Positions 1 to 5,023 of a stretch of DNA of 64,000 nucleotides are shown here, piece after piece. Made by a program: the position numbers and the translations under genes. A model generated the notes under the pieces. That model did not search any database. It was not told the DNA's origin and worked only from the letters and a program-made list of their open reading frames with translations. Positions within the stretch are counted from its first letter, which is position 1. Each line of letters begins with the position of its first letter. The stretch spans positions 1-64,000 of the forward strand of contig CAIUGL010000121.1 in the NCBI GenBank assembly GCA_903898715.1, written 5' to 3'. This DNA comes from an uncultured Cytophagaceae bacterium. Its GTDB lineage: Bacteria > Bacteroidota > Bacteroidia > Cytophagales > Spirosomataceae.

Positions 1-1842
1 ATCACGCATATGGTGATAATGCCATGAATCTGGATATTTACCTCCTTCACGATGCAAATCTGGACCTGTACGTTTCGATCCCCACAAGAATGGATGGTCA
101 TATACGAATTCCCCTGATTTGGAGAATTCCCCATAGCGTTCCGTTTCACTACGGAAAGGACGTACTAATTGCGAATGGCAATTGACACATCCTTCACGAA
201 TGTAAATATCGCGTCCTTCTAATTCTAACGAAGTGTATGGTTTCACTGCCTCTATGGTAGGTACATTCGATTTGACCATAAACGTCGGAATTAATTCAAC
301 GAGTGAACCGACCAAAATCATGATGAGGGAGCCGGCCAACAACTGGATTGGTTTACGTTCGATCCAGCGGTGCCAATGTTCCCCTTTTTCAGCTTCTTCG
401 GTTATAGCTAAGGGTGCGGCTTCAGCTGCCTCATTGGCCAATAAAGTTCCCTGAGCCATTGTTTTGAATAAATTGTAGGCCATTAAGATGGCACCAATCA
501 AATAGAGCGTTCCTCCGATGGCCCGCATCATGTGCATCGGTAATAATTGCAAGGTCGTATCTAGGAAGTTGCCATACTGCAAAGTCCCCTCTGCCGTAAA
601 TTGCTTCCACATCATACCTTGCGTAAATCCCGAGATGTACATCGGTATGGCATAAAATGCAATGCCAATCGTCCCAATCCAGAAGTGTATTTTTACTAAT
701 TTCTCAGAGAATAAGGTTGTTTGGAAAATGCGTGGTATGAGCCAATACAACATCGCAAACGTTAAGAAACCATTCCATCCTAAAGCTCCCACATGTACGT
801 GTGCTACAATCCAGTCGGTGAAGTGCGCGATGGCATTGATGTTTTTCAAACTCAACATGGGCCCTTCAAATGTGGCCATACCATAGCAGGTAATGCCAAC
901 TACCATGAATTTCAATATCGTATTCTCACGAACCTGATCCCAAGCTCCACGCAAGGTCAATAAACCGTTTATCATGCCACCCCACGATGGGGCAATCAGC
1001 ATGATCGAAAATACAACACCCAACGATTGTGCCCAATCGGGTAAACTGGAGTATAATAAATGGTGAGGGCCTGCCCAAATGTAAATGAAAATCAGCGCCC
1101 AAAAGTGCAAGATCGATAATCGGTATGAGTACACTGGACGATTCGCCATCTTTGGCAGGAAGTAATACATTAATCCCAGGAAAGGCGTCGTTAAGAAGAA
1201 TGCGACCGCATTATGGCCGTACCACCACTGAACTAATGCATCTTGAACGCCGGCATACACATAATAGGATTTGAAAAATGAAATGGGCAATTGCATGGAA
1301 TTGGTCAAGTGCAATACTGCTACGGTAATAAACGTGGCGATGTAAAACCAAATCGCTACATACAAATGGCGTTCACGTCTTTTAAATATGGTACCAAACA
1401 TATTCACACCAAACGCGACCCAAACCAAGGTTATAGCTATGTCGATTGGCCATTCTAATTCTGCATATTCATGCGACGTGGTAATCCCTAAAGGTAGTGT
1501 GATGGCTGCAGCAACAATGATGCTTTGCCAGCCCCAGAAATGGAAACTAGATAAAATATCACTAAACATGCGAGCTTTCAACAAGCGCTGAAGCGAGTAA
1601 TAAACGCCTGCAAATATGGCATTACCCACAAAGGCAAAAATCACCGCATTCGTGTGAAGCGGACGAATACGTCCAAAAGTTCCATATTGAGTAAAATTCG
1701 CCATCGGTTCGAAAAGTTGGGTGGCAATGATTACGCCAACCAGCATACCTACGACTCCCCAGATGATCGTCGCAATAGCGAAATTTCGAACAATCGTATT
1801 GTCATAAGCGAATTGCTCTAGCGTGGTAGACTTTGTGCTCAT
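1..1842 (-). CDS. ccoNO: Fused cbb3-type cytochrome c oxidase subunits I and II (CcoNO), 3' end cut by window
   Basis: Terminal oxidase core in the inner membrane that reduces oxygen with high affinity and pumps protons. The frame is open from the ATG at 1842 to the window edge (614 codons). Residues 1 to about 470 are the polytopic CcoN heme-copper subunit, including WWYGHNA and HVHVGALGWNG segments with heme and copper histidines. After a linker and one more membrane helix it continues as CcoO, with a heme c motif CVNCH near residue 551 followed by VRPFRSE and the start of GPDL. CcoN-CcoO fusion is known in Bacteroidota. The ATG overlaps the TGA of ccoS by 4 bp, implying translational coupling. 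The C-terminal part of CcoO and any ccoP lie outside the window. Confidence 0.95.
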   Translation of the reverse strand, partial: MSTKSTTLEQFAYDNTIVRNFAIATIIWGVVGMLVGVIIATQLFEPMANFTQYGTFGRIRPLHTNAVIFAFVGNAIFAGVYYSLQRLLKARMFSDILSSFHFWGWQSIIVAAAITLPLGITTSHEYAELEWPIDIAITLVWVAFGVNMFGTIFKRRERHLYVAIWFYIATFITVAVLHLTNSMQLPISFFKSYYVYAGVQDALVQWWYGHNAVAFFLTTPFLGLMYYFLPKMANRPVYSYRLSILHFWALIFIYIWAGPHHLLYSSLPDWAQSLGVVFSIMLIAPSWGGMINGLLTLRGAWDQVRENTILKFMVVGITCYGMATFEGPMLSLKNINAIAHFTDWIVAHVHVGALGWNGFLTFAMLYWLIPRIFQTTLFSEKLVKIHFWIGTIGIAFYAIPMYISGFTQGMMWKQFTAEGTLQYGNFLDTTLQLLPMHMMRAIGGTLYLIGAILMAYNLFKTMAQGTLLANEAAEAAPLAITEEAEKGEHWHRWIERKPIQLLAGSLIMILVGSLVELIPTFMVKSNVPTIEAVKPYTSLELEGRDIYIREGCVNCHSQLVRPFRSETERYGEFSKSGEFVYDHPFLWGSKRTGPDLHREGGKYPDSWHYHHMRD

Positions 1843-1994
1843 AAAGGTTTATTTGTTTTTTCTTCTGTTAATATGCGCATGGCTGGTGTAATCAAATCGT
1901 CTTGTTGGCCATTTTTAACCGACCAAACAAATGCTAATAAAAAGCCCACAGCCATCAGTAAACTCAATGCGATCATTACGTACATGATTTCCAT
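1839..1994 (-). CDS. ccoS: cbb3 oxidase assembly protein CcoS (51 aa)
   Basis: Small single-pass membrane protein needed in other bacteria for cofactor insertion into cbb3 oxidase. The 51-residue product begins MEIMYVMIALSLLMAVGF, has one hydrophobic helix (about residues 5-24), then FVWSVKNGQQDDL, which matches the CcoS pattern of a helix followed by W-x-V-x-x-G-Q-x-D-D. Its TGA overlaps the ATG of the ccoNO gene (ATGA), and it lies downstream of ccoI, the usual order in this phylum. A second in-frame ATG three codons in is possible. An FNR-like box lies just upstream. Confidence 0.88.
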   Translation of the reverse strand: MEIMYVMIALSLLMAVGFLLAFVWSVKNGQQDDLITPAMRILTEEKTNKPL

Positions 1995-2016: not shown

Positions 2017-2060
2017 CAAAATTCAAGTTTATCGCTCGGCAAAAACATGACTTCTGTCAA
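2017..2060 (-). promoter_or_regulatory. FNR/FixK-like box and candidate -7 element upstream of ccoS-ccoNO
   Basis: On the minus strand the palindrome TTGAC-AGAA-GTCAT occupies 2060-2047 and fits the Crp/Fnr-type pattern TTGAY-N4-RTCAA except for its last base. GAATTTTG, close to the Bacteroidota -7 consensus TAnnTTTG, occupies 2024-2017. The box centre is 36.5 nt from the final G of the -7 element. If transcription starts about 4 nt beyond, the box is centred near -40.5, a class II activator position. The same spacing occurs at 4572-4614. Motif identity is by eye; binding is inferred. Confidence 0.45.
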
Positions 2061-2075
2061 TTTTGGTCATTCATT

Positions 2076-4502
2076 TTATGATTTTAGTGCATGTCCTTTC
2101 CAACTCATGCCCAGATTCGCAATGAGTAACATACTAATTGAATTTATAGGCATCAAAACGGCTGCAATGAGAGGTGATAGATTTCCTTGCACTGCATAGC
2201 TTAATCCGATGGCATTATAGACTAAGGACAAAAGGAAACTCAGTTTGATCAATTTTAGGCCAAACTCAGAGAAGACTAAATATTTCGGTAATTGAGCTAG
2301 TTGCTCCCCTTTTAAAATGGCATCACTCGCAGGCGTGAAATGTAAGTGATCATCTGAAATAGCAATTCCTACATGGGCTTGCCGTAAAGCTCCCGCATCA
2401 TTTAAGCCGTCACCAATCATGGCCACGCGATGTCCTTGTTCTTGAAGCGATTGAATAAACCTCATTTTATCCATCGGACTGCATTCAAATTGATAGGTAC
2501 TCGGATCCGGAAACCAGTCCAAAATGCTTCCTGCATGGGCTTGTTTATCTCCTGAAAGTAAATACACCCGGTATTTGGCTTGTAACTGATGAATCATCAC
2601 TTCAATGCCAGCTCGGTAAACCCAGGGAAATTCAATAAAGCCTACAGAGATACCTCCAATTTGAATATACAATTGCGATTCCGACCGGATGTAGTTGTTG
2701 TCTTTAGGTACGCGGTGTCCGGTATATTTGGCATTTAATAGACGATATTCGACTCCTTCGATGATGGCTTCAAGTCCTTTACCCGTTTTTTCAGTAAATT
2801 TTTCTAACGGTACAATTAGCTGTTTTTCAGGCACATAGCGTACGAATTGACGCGACATGGGATGGGTGGATTGTAAGGCCAACGAATAAAGTGCACTCCA
2901 TTCTGATGAGCTTAATTCCCTCGTTAGTTTTGCGATGGGTTCTAGGGTACTCGGTAACGTTAATGTGCCCGTTTTGTCCAATACAATGGTATCTACCTGA
3001 GCCATGCGCTCAAAGGCCTGGATGTCTTTGATGAAAAAATTACTTTTTGCAAGCCAACGAATCCCCTGACCAAGTGCAAATGGATATGAGATGGCCAATG
3101 CACACGGGCAGGCAATAACTAAAATGCTGACGACGGCATTGGACCACCTGCTTGGATCAGTATAGAGCCAGTAACTGCCTACGATAATGGCTAGACTAAG
3201 GAGGCCTACTGTAAAATACACGCCAACTTGATTCGCAAAATTTTCCCAATTCTCAGTTTTATGCAATGGATCTTTAAAGGCCTGCTGCTCCCATAACTGG
3301 GTCAAATGACTCTGCTTAAGCTCTTTTTTGATTTCAATTTCGATACGCTCACCGGTATGTCGGCCGCCAGCATACATCGAATTCCCTGCATTAATTCTAA
3401 CCATTTCACTCTCCCCTGTGACAAAACTGTAATCCAATTGGCTAGAACCCGAAATAAGTACCGCATCTGCTGGAATGATTTCTTGATTTCGTATGATTAA
3501 GCGATCACCTATTTTGATTTCATTAAGCGGATAATTCACTTCTTTTCCACCTTCCAATTTGCTTATCACCAAAGGGAAATATGACTTGTAATTACGTTCA
3601 AATGATAGGAAATCGAAGGATTTTTGTTGGAACCACTTCCCTATCAACAAAAAGAAAATAAGTCCTGATACGGAATCTATGTAGCCAGCTCCCGTATGCG
3701 AAAATACTTCGTAAACGCTGCGGCCGTAACCAACGAGGATACCGATTAAAATAGGTAATTCAATCGTCATTTTTCCCAGTTTCAGGTGGGCCCATACGTT
3801 TTTGAAATAATCTGATCCGGAGTAAAAGACAGCCAAACTGCCTAATGCAATATTTAGATACCCGAAGAGCTGTTTGAGTGATCCATCTTCGATGCCTAAA
3901 TATTCAGGGAAACTAAATAACATGGCATTGCCTGCGCAAAAACCAGCAATCCCTAATTTGATAAATAACTGAGTTTGATGATTAACTTGTTTTCGTTTTT
4001 CTTTTGAAACTTCATCTGACGATATTAAGGGTTCATAGCCTAAACTAGCGAGTAAAGTGGCTATTTGACCTAAGTTAATCTGGTCTTCTTGAAACCAAAC
4101 AGTCAGATCTTTTTTGCCAAAATTCAAAGTTGTTTTGACGATTCCTGAATTTAGTTTTTGGAGGTTTTCAAGTAAGCATAGGCAGGATCGGCAGTGTATG
4201 GCAGGTAAATGAAAATTGACTTTTGAAACGCCTTGACTTGAAAAACTGATAAGTTTATCTTGAAAATGGGGATTATTTAGAAATTCAAAATTTTGTGCCG
4301 AAGGTGCTTTTCCTGGATTTACATCACAGACATAAAATTCCGCTAGCGAGTTGTCATTCAGTAGTTGGTATACCTGCTTACATCCATGGCAGCAGAACGC
4401 TTTTTCGTCGTATTCGATGGTATCATCTTGACAGATTTCATGGCAATGAAAACAGGTTGTTTCAGTAAGGGTGGCTATTTCTTCTACTTCACTTGCGTGC
4501 AT
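2076..4502 (-). CDS. ccoI: Copper-translocating P-type ATPase for cbb3 assembly (CcoI/FixI type)
   Basis: P1B-type ATPase that exports copper toward the periplasm for cbb3 oxidase assembly. The N-terminal cysteine-rich metal-binding domain has CFHC and CCHGC motifs. A heavy-metal-associated domain follows with CRSC. The membrane region contains the CPC transport site (IACPCALAISYP), then the phosphorylation motif DKTGTLT and the hinge MIGDGLNDAGAL. I chose the ATG at 4502 (808 aa). A GTG at 4562 extends the frame by 20 unremarkable residues. It lies directly upstream of ccoS-ccoNO, so role in oxidase maturation rather than general copper export is favoured. It is divergent from the cyclic-nucleotide-binding protein at 4622. 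Confidence 0.92.
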   Translation of the reverse strand: MHASEVEEIATLTETTCFHCHEICQDDTIEYDEKAFCCHGCKQVYQLLNDNSLAEFYVCDVNPGKAPSAQNFEFLNNPHFQDKLISFSSQGVSKVNFHLPAIHCRSCLCLLENLQKLNSGIVKTTLNFGKKDLTVWFQEDQINLGQIATLLASLGYEPLISSDEVSKEKRKQVNHQTQLFIKLGIAGFCAGNAMLFSFPEYLGIEDGSLKQLFGYLNIALGSLAVFYSGSDYFKNVWAHLKLGKMTIELPILIGILVGYGRSVYEVFSHTGAGYIDSVSGLIFFLLIGKWFQQKSFDFLSFERNYKSYFPLVISKLEGGKEVNYPLNEIKIGDRLIIRNQEIIPADAVLISGSSQLDYSFVTGESEMVRINAGNSMYAGGRHTGERIEIEIKKELKQSHLTQLWEQQAFKDPLHKTENWENFANQVGVYFTVGLLSLAIIVGSYWLYTDPSRWSNAVVSILVIACPCALAISYPFALGQGIRWLAKSNFFIKDIQAFERMAQVDTIVLDKTGTLTLPSTLEPIAKLTRELSSSEWSALYSLALQSTHPMSRQFVRYVPEKQLIVPLEKFTEKTGKGLEAIIEGVEYRLLNAKYTGHRVPKDNNYIRSESQLYIQIGGISVGFIEFPWVYRAGIEVMIHQLQAKYRVYLLSGDKQAHAGSILDWFPDPSTYQFECSPMDKMRFIQSLQEQGHRVAMIGDGLNDAGALRQAHVGIAISDDHLHFTPASDAILKGEQLAQLPKYLVFSEFGLKLIKLSFLLSLVYNAIGLSYAVQGNLSPLIAAVLMPINSISMLLIANLGMSWKGHALKS

Positions 4503-4571
4503 ATCACCAAATTTTACACAAAAATGATGGCTTTTTCGAAGGTAATTTGTGACAAATCGCACATGGGAAAC

Positions 4572-4614
4572 TGATGATTATCATGAATCACTTGGATGAA
4601 TGCGTCTACTTTTG
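4572..4614 (+). promoter_or_regulatory. FNR-like box and -7 element upstream of the CNBD gene, in the ccoI divergent region
   Basis: TGAT-GATT-ATCA at 4572-4583 is an exact match to the inner eight bases of the FNR/FixK consensus (TTGAT-N4-ATCAA); the two outer bases do not match. A perfect -7 box TACTTTTG (TAnnTTTG) sits at 4607-4614. The box centre is 36.5 nt from the final G of the -7 box, as at the ccoS site. The likely transcript starts only a few bases before the ATG at 4622. A separate short dyad, ATTTGT-G-ACAAAT, lies at 4545-4557 on the ccoI side. Confidence 0.5.
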
Positions 4615-4621
4615 TTCAGCA

Positions 4622-5023
4622 ATGGAAAAAACAAAGGATCTTTTAATTGATACGGAACGGAAAATACTCGCAAGTGGTATTTTGATCAATTATCTGCCAG
4701 CGGAGTTTTTGTTCCGACAAGGCCAAAAAGCGGAGTTTGTCTTTTACTTAAATCGGGGTTCCATGGAAATGCAATGGCCTGAAAAAGACAAGAAATTAAC
4801 GATTAGCCAGCGAAACGTTTTCATTGGATTAGACGAGGCTTTTAGCGAAGGACGTTATGTCTGTACAGCCATGACGACTGAATTGTCCGAGTTTTTAGTA
4901 TTTGAACGGGCTTATTTTATGGAGTTAATTCAGGAATTCGAATATGCGATTCCTTATTTGGAATCAATGCAAGAGGCATTTATTCGGAATTTAAGCCCTA
5001 AAGAAATTAGCTTTTTTACCTAG
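4622..5023 (+). CDS. Stand-alone cyclic-nucleotide-binding-domain protein without HTH
   Basis: The 133-residue product (ATG at 4622, MEKTKDLLID) reads as the beta-roll effector domain of the Crp/Fnr superfamily: PAEFLFRQGQKAEFVFYLNRG corresponds to the start of the roll, and the C-terminal part looks like the long helix. The gene stops at SPKEISFFT, where a Crp/Fnr protein would continue into its helix-turn-helix. Only 70 bp remain before the next gene, holding a terminator, so no frame-shifted HTH is present. The N-terminal cysteine cluster of oxygen-sensing FNR is also absent. ATGs at 4574 and 4583 are possible but overlap the FNR-like box. The CNBD assignment is from pattern recognition. 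Function is unknown; DNA binding by itself is unlikely. Confidence 0.7.
   Translation: MEKTKDLLIDTERKILASGILINYLPAEFLFRQGQKAEFVFYLNRGSMEMQWPEKDKKLTISQRNVFIGLDEAFSEGRYVCTAMTTELSEFLVFERAYFMELIQEFEYAIPYLESMQEAFIRNLSPKEISFFT

Follow-up and report, generated by a model that had tools for sequence, protein, structure and literature searches.

The sequence analyzed here (the window) comprises bases 1–64,000 of contig CAIUGL010000121.1 (C121), part of a 2.3-Mb, 86% complete genome of the genus Aquirufa, family Spirosomataceae. It carries genes of a cbb3 locus, and two Crp/Fnr-type palindromes in this locus, site A between ccoI and a divergently oriented CNBD gene and site B upstream of ccoS-ccoNO, are predicted to be conserved class II-type boxes near -41.5, an assignment that is well supported by related genomes. 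The reading we favor, with a probability of roughly two thirds (about 0.68), is that both sites are activator boxes (-41.5/-63.5) of sigma-A promoters of the TAnnTTTG type, and that they would be read by a receiver-Crp fusion protein (RR-Crp) phosphorylated by a PAS kinase at low oxygen. In the proposed mechanism, low oxygen would cause the kinase to phosphorylate the receiver of RR-Crp, the phosphorylated protein would bind the class II (-41.5) and class I (-63.5) boxes, and this binding would lead to transcription of ccoI, ccoS-ccoNO and the CNBD gene. The identity of the binding protein, activation as opposed to repression, the phosphorylation, the heme and the oxygen cue are the parts of this mechanism that we infer.

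Both palindromes are present where the original prediction had located them. Each is followed, after 27 nucleotides (nt), by TTTG, with the last G at 4614 (plus strand) for site A and at 2017 (minus strand) for site B, so that the predicted equal distance of 36.5 nt between the box centre and the last base of TTTG applies to the two sites alike. The sites, the elements associated with them and the neighboring genes are as follows:

4572..4583, plus strand: site A, TGATGATTATCA, Crp/Fnr-type palindrome, predicted to be centred at -41.5 (class II) for the CNBD gene and at -63.5 (class I) for the divergently transcribed ccoI
2048..2059, minus strand (read from 2059 to 2048): site B, TGACAGAAGTCA, Crp/Fnr-type palindrome; predicted -41.5 box of ccoS-ccoNO
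4607..4614, plus strand: TACTTTTG, -7 element for the CNBD gene, whose transcription is predicted to start around 4619 (position taken from PMC9723704)
4519..4526, minus strand: -7 element CATTTTTG of ccoI; TTTG kept, TA not; predicted start around 4514
4550..4561, minus strand: degenerate second box TGCGATTTGTCA, spaced 22 bp from site A and predicted to lie at -41.5 relative to ccoI
2017..2024, minus strand: -7 element GAATTTTG of ccoS-ccoNO; TTTG kept, TA not; predicted start around 2012, based on sequence and conserved spacing
4622..5023, plus strand: CNBD gene, 133 amino acids; Pfam cNMP_binding only
2076..4502, minus strand: ccoI, cbb3-type P-type ATPase; Pfam E1-E2_ATPase, Hydrolase and ATPase-cat_bd
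1839..1994, minus strand: ccoS; Pfam FixS
1..1842, minus strand: ccoNO fusion, cut by the contig start; 93% identical to ccoNO of genome G006, named by eye

The equal spacing had been called unlikely to arise by chance, and in the window this depends on the form of the motif. The palindrome TGAY-N4-RTCA alone occurs seven times in the window with 5.38 expected, i.e., it is not rarer than chance, whereas its combination with a gap of 27 nt and TTYG was found twice with 0.12 expected, and none of 100 shuffles yielded two. Since a looser composite starting from TGA-N6-TCA reached two in 15 of 100 shuffles, the window alone is only suggestive and the decision lies with the relatives. Although the frequencies of the palindrome and of the looser composite would fit chance palindromes with a meaningless spacing, this explanation is very improbable, as the spacing is kept in 24/24 (site A), 22/22 (site B) and 23/24 (toward ccoI) genus loci, and the class-wide peaks lie at exactly 27 and 49 nt, far above antisense composites and other gaps.

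The genus set consists of 38 genomes, 24 of which contain a strong ccoI match, and the intergenic region between ccoI and the CNBD gene was available at all 24 loci. Site A is kept throughout, as TGA-N6-TCA in 21 loci and as TGA-N6-TTA in three, and its gap to TTTG or TTCG (TTYG) amounts to 27 nt in every case. Identity over these loci is 0.98 for the TGA/TCA core, 0.95 for the TA and TTYG positions and 0.56 for the 23-nt spacer. The region between ccoI and ccoS, available for 22 genus loci, contains TGA-N6-TCA in all of them, each time with a box exactly 27 nt further on, which reads TTTG in nine, TTGC in seven and TTTA in six loci; one locus (L050) lay beyond the 190-nt scan and was scored separately. 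The TTTA cases are weak -7 elements, located 61–64 nt from ccoS (further away in L050). Conservation of the palindromes in relatives, chosen beforehand as the test on which the original prediction would stand or fall, is therefore found for both the boxes and their spacing.

According to a study on Flavobacterium psychrophilum, the sigma-A TAnnTTTG box of this species is located at -12 to -5 (PMC9723704), and for this reason a gap of 27 nt would place the box centre at -41.5 and a gap of 49 nt at -63.5. The class II position (-41) claimed at the outset is thus well supported by the conserved box and gap, while the transcription start itself is taken over from F. psychrophilum. As a side observation, TTGC replaces TTTG at the same -7 position in the ccoI-ccoS region of seven genus loci (L037–L043); these variants are similar to SM5, a TAnnTTGY motif of F. 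psychrophilum described for -12 to -5 as well (PMC9723704).

On the opposite strand, toward ccoI, site A lies 49 nt from a TTTG at 4522–4519 in the window. This gap is 49 nt in 23 of the 24 genus loci and 48 nt in the remaining one, and a degenerate box located 22 bp beyond site A in the direction of ccoI, consisting of TGC (18 loci) or TGT (five loci) and a distal TCA, was found in 23 of 24. From the gap and the degenerate box, ccoI seems to have two boxes in tandem (-63.5/-41.5), and site A accordingly seems, as judged from these spacings, to be common to the two divergent promoters of ccoI and the CNBD gene. An assignment of site A to the CNBD gene only was dropped once the 49-nt spacing to ccoI had been found. 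Likewise, the inverted repeat ATTTGTGACAAAT between ccoI and the CNBD gene, considered as a separate element, is explained by the degenerate second ccoI box.

To look beyond the genus, we used the best 80 of 209 RR-Crp relatives with names, 59 of which are non-Aquirufa loci. With gaps from 12 to 60 nt scored between TGA-N6-TCA and TAnnTTYG, these 59 loci gave 29 matches at a gap of 27 and 99 at a gap of 49, with no more than four at every other gap, and 53 of them contain at least one such composite. As many of the loci are from Pedobacter, the matches are not independent. Genes downstream of gap-49 boxes include ccoNO, ccoI and a kinase gene (L145) as well as genes for a 2-hydroxyacid dehydrogenase domain protein, a universal stress protein, a pyridoxamine-oxidase-like protein and a protein of 589 amino acids without any Pfam match. 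The latter (L113, 6973–8739, with similar ones elsewhere) is preceded by a gap-49 box in many Pedobacter loci.

A class-wide sample comprised 198 Bacteroidia genomes, including the one of the window, of which 107 contain ccoNO at E ≤ 1e-60. These were split into 69 genomes with RR-Crp, either at full length or in two contig pieces (as in both G000 and G115), and 38 without. Up to 3.6 kb upstream of ccoNO were analyzed for 60 of the 69 genomes and for all 38 (39 loci); the lists of RR-Crp and FNR occurrence, the family labels and the contig distances were compiled by hand, and the loci are related to one another, with Fisher p values and shuffles given without correction for phylogeny. A box at gap 27 or 49 is present upstream of ccoNO in 75 of the 99 loci, with approximately three to five expected. 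With TTYG as the -7 box, sense composites at these gaps occur in 51/60 loci with RR-Crp (27 of 30 families) and in 24/39 loci without (13 of 20 families), as compared to eight and one antisense composites, respectively; the stricter TAnnTTYG gave 23/60 and 16/39 in sense orientation, with five and none in antisense. Tandem boxes on one -7 box account for 37 of the 51 and 13 of the 24 composites. The spacing rule at gaps 27 and 49 recurs widely in Bacteroidia.

The most likely activator in Aquirufa appears to be RR-Crp, whose gene and that of the PAS kinase are neighbors at the distal end of the cbb3 cluster. In G006, a genome consisting of a single contig, the order is PAS kinase, RR-Crp, TauE-like, ccoH-like, ccoG, ccoP, ccoNO, ccoS, ccoI and CNBD gene (names from TauE-like through ccoNO assigned by eye). 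In the genome of the window, the same genes are spread over three contigs: C69 carries the kinase and the beginning of RR-Crp, C173 continues from there as far as ccoP, and the others are on C121; the ends of C69 and C173 encode one common protein stretch. RR-Crp contains the Pfam domains Response_reg, cNMP_binding and HTH_Crp_2, and the kinase contains PAS, HisKA and HATPase_c. Among the genus genomes, RR-Crp was found in 23 of 24 with ccoI vs. one of 14 without; no RR-Crp match was obtained for G035 (85% complete), which has ccoI, and the matches in G000 and G003 are partial at contig ends. In 79 of the 80 named loci a kinase gene stands ahead of RR-Crp, and 64 of 80 loci have a ccoNO, ccoI, ccoP or ccoG match near RR-Crp within the locus DNA examined.

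The single genus genome with RR-Crp in which no ccoI was found, G009 (98% complete), possesses the kinase, RR-Crp and TauE-like genes (L063, 8535–12715). No cbb3 gene was found between its TauE-like and SDR genes, nor was there a ccoI match in the whole genome, and the kinase/RR-Crp system should consequently have other targets.

All 81 RR-Crp sequences retain the Asp and the Lys of the receiver. Of the two helix-turn-helix (HTH) residues that we equate with E209 and R213 of FNR, Glu is present in 81/81 and Arg in 80/81. RR-Crp thus has the Glu/Arg pair of the FNR recognition helix and lacks the cysteine ligands: a C-x2-C after the receiver was found in 0/81, a Cys at the CFIP column in 3/81 and some Cys after the receiver in 46/81. 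Owing to the missing C-x2-C, RR-Crp is not filed as FNR. The FNR/FixK label given to the palindromes earlier consequently fits the boxes, which are of Crp/Fnr type, and does not fit the best candidate regulator, a receiver-Crp fusion without the FNR-type C-x2-C.

Oxygen sensing by a heme PAS domain of the kinase is plausible on the basis of sequence comparison. Among proteins of solved structure, the kinase PAS domain comes closest to the heme PAS domains of DosP (E 1.6e-14) and FixL (4e-12), with such heme PAS matches extending to 7e-11; the next PAS matches follow from 1.6e-7 on and include a blue-light receptor (1.7e-6). A His aligned with the DosP His is found in 80/80 kinases, and we take it to be the proximal heme ligand, equivalent to that of FixL. 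At the column which we assign to the distal Arg of FixL, the 80 kinases mostly have Arg (44), Leu (27) or Met (6), with Leu in G006, and oxygen binding by the heme is for this reason uncertain. The same column is what speaks for a different cue (nitric oxide, redox or quinone state) being sensed by the kinase while RR-Crp reads the boxes, or else for repression by RR-Crp. We consider this combination possible, though doubtful, because boxes in class II and class I positions ahead of a -7 element are those used by activators. In addition, the cbb3 genes of F. psychrophilum are strongly induced under oxygen limitation, with no regulator named in the accessible part of that study (PMC9723704).

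A second candidate for the binding protein is a stand-alone Crp of 209 amino acids (C103 of G000; L072, 2715–3344). It matches the CNBD family, its end SREVISR resembles, by eye, a Crp-type recognition helix, and TGA-N6-TCA boxes with a gap of 26 or 27 nt to TTTG adjoin its gene. Binding of sites A and B by this protein instead of RR-Crp is nevertheless unlikely: it occurs in 36 of 38 genus genomes regardless of ccoI and has other genes as neighbors, whereas RR-Crp tracks ccoI (see above) and belongs to the G006 cluster. The boxes beside the 209-residue Crp in L072 are located at 3342–3353 and 4838–4849, one of them 27 nt from a TTTG upstream of a TauE/SafE-like gene (by eye).

A third type of protein has to be considered in genomes without RR-Crp. 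Of the 38 ccoNO-containing genomes of this group, 16 were examined, and the Crp-type HTH protein that scored best in them is encoded by a stand-alone frame 231–255 codons long. Fourteen of these 16 FNR-like proteins were analyzed, and each of the 14 has a C-x2-C close to its N-terminus together with a Cys at the CFIP column (13 CFIP, one CHIP); for one of them, the nearest NCBIfam model is Fnr (1e-34, below the model cut-off). RR-Crp of the window's genome is 37% identical to an FNR-like protein over 182 residues, and an FNR query against this genome gave one weak match (2.0e-34). Strict FNR matches were found in at least 22 of 69 genomes with RR-Crp, counted among the matches listed and possibly an undercount, vs. 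32 of 38 genomes without (Fisher 2e-7). FNR (strict or partial) shares the contig of ccoNO in 18 of 34 genomes, and in 16 of these 18 it is located within 15 kb.

When the loci are grouped by both proteins, with partial FNR matches (G079, G149, G087, G166 and G168) counted as FNR here and left aside in the Fisher test, the composite is present in 30/36 loci with RR-Crp only (shuffles 0.95, control gaps 2.5), in 21/24 with both (0.80 and 0.38), in 23/35 with FNR only (1.05 and 1.75) and in 1/4 with neither. The occurrence of the same boxes with RR-Crp or with FNR argues for a common code whose sensors have been exchanged; by the same token, the binder cannot be read from the boxes alone. These comparisons suggest one promoter code that may be read by two kinds of sensor.

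Several observations weigh against the reading favored here. At site B, the sequence following the 27-nt gap reads TTTA in 6/22 and TTGC in 7/22 genus loci, and the -7 elements of ccoS and ccoI agree with TTTG but not with TA. In the class, the composite was not found upstream of ccoNO in 24 of 99 loci, some of which are covered only in part (contig end), and RR-Crp and ccoNO share a contig in just 30 of 69 genomes, 22 of which have them no more than 15 kb apart. The distal Arg column of the kinase, and the presence of the 209-residue Crp with its HTH-like end in the window's own genome, belong here as well. Finally, the composite also occurs in 24 of 39 loci from genomes without RR-Crp. The box is therefore not exclusive to RR-Crp and can be read by a different Crp/Fnr protein, which weakens the idea of RR-Crp as the sole possible binder.

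The CNBD gene had itself been a candidate for the regulator and was rejected as such, since a Pfam search of its product found no HTH; lacking a DNA-binding domain, it is regarded as a target. Its product has 133 amino acids when started at the ATG at 4622. The longest frame (149 amino acids) starts at 4574, upstream of the predicted transcription start and inside site A, making 4622 the likely start, and the CNBD message is likely to be nearly leaderless if the predicted promoter holds. An AlphaFold model (nine sequences, pLDDT 87.8) displays a beta-roll of the cyclic-nucleotide-binding type, a short C-helix (109–123) and a low-confidence end from 127 on. A search of 59 genomes, its own included, gave matches to the gene in 24 of the 37 from the genus and in none of the 22 from other genera of the order; G016 (83% complete) has such a match without one for ccoI or RR-Crp. 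The similarity between the CNBD product and the CNBD of RR-Crp is faint (E 0.016, single comparison), and a role of the product as feedback partner of RR-Crp is speculation. A wider version, in which the -63.5/-41.5 code would be read interchangeably by an Fe-S FNR or by a heme-PAS kinase with an FNR-like protein carrying a receiver in place of its sensor, and in which the DNA-binding-dead CNBD product of Aquirufa would pair with RR-Crp and switch the system off, strikes us as a long shot.

FNR of Escherichia coli acts at class II and class I promoters of respiratory genes, with a TGA-N6-TCA core centred at about -41.5 or about -61.5. The arrangement described here shares the core, a centre predicted at about -41.5 and the respiratory genes as likely targets, and differs in its TAnnTTTG promoters, in a predicted class I centre at about -63.5 and in the tandem -63.5/-41.5 arrangement with 22 bp between the boxes. 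The stand-alone FNR-like protein of Bacteroidia goes along with the same gap 27/49 boxes upstream of ccoNO and has an HTH similar to that of RR-Crp, whereas its N-terminal C-x2-C and CFIP-column Cys and the missing receiver set it apart. In rhizobia, the FixL-FixJ-FixK cascade controls fixNOQP (PMC7888657). The system of Aquirufa resembles this cascade in having a kinase with PAS, HisKA and HATPase domains (present in G006) and a His where FixL has its heme ligand, as well as a receiver protein and a Crp-type box at cbb3 genes. It differs in the Leu at the distal Arg column in G006 and in that the receiver and the Crp-type DNA-binding part are found in one protein, whose output is cNMP_binding plus HTH_Crp_2 instead of the LuxR-type output of FixJ; the FixJ and FixK steps thus appear to be merged.

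To our knowledge, few regulator sites have been mapped in Bacteroidota. MalR-type sites have been used for genomes of Flavobacteriales and Saprospiraceae, for which no cbb3 site is described in the accessible part of that work (PMC8510549). Among the matches listed in a search of the open-access literature, covering titles and the openings of abstracts, no description of this regulator or promoter rule in Bacteroidota was found. What emerges would be a simple promoter rule for low-oxygen genes in a sparsely mapped phylum, together with a regulator that may merge the FixJ and FixK steps in one protein, the sensor seemingly being exchanged while the DNA code stays.

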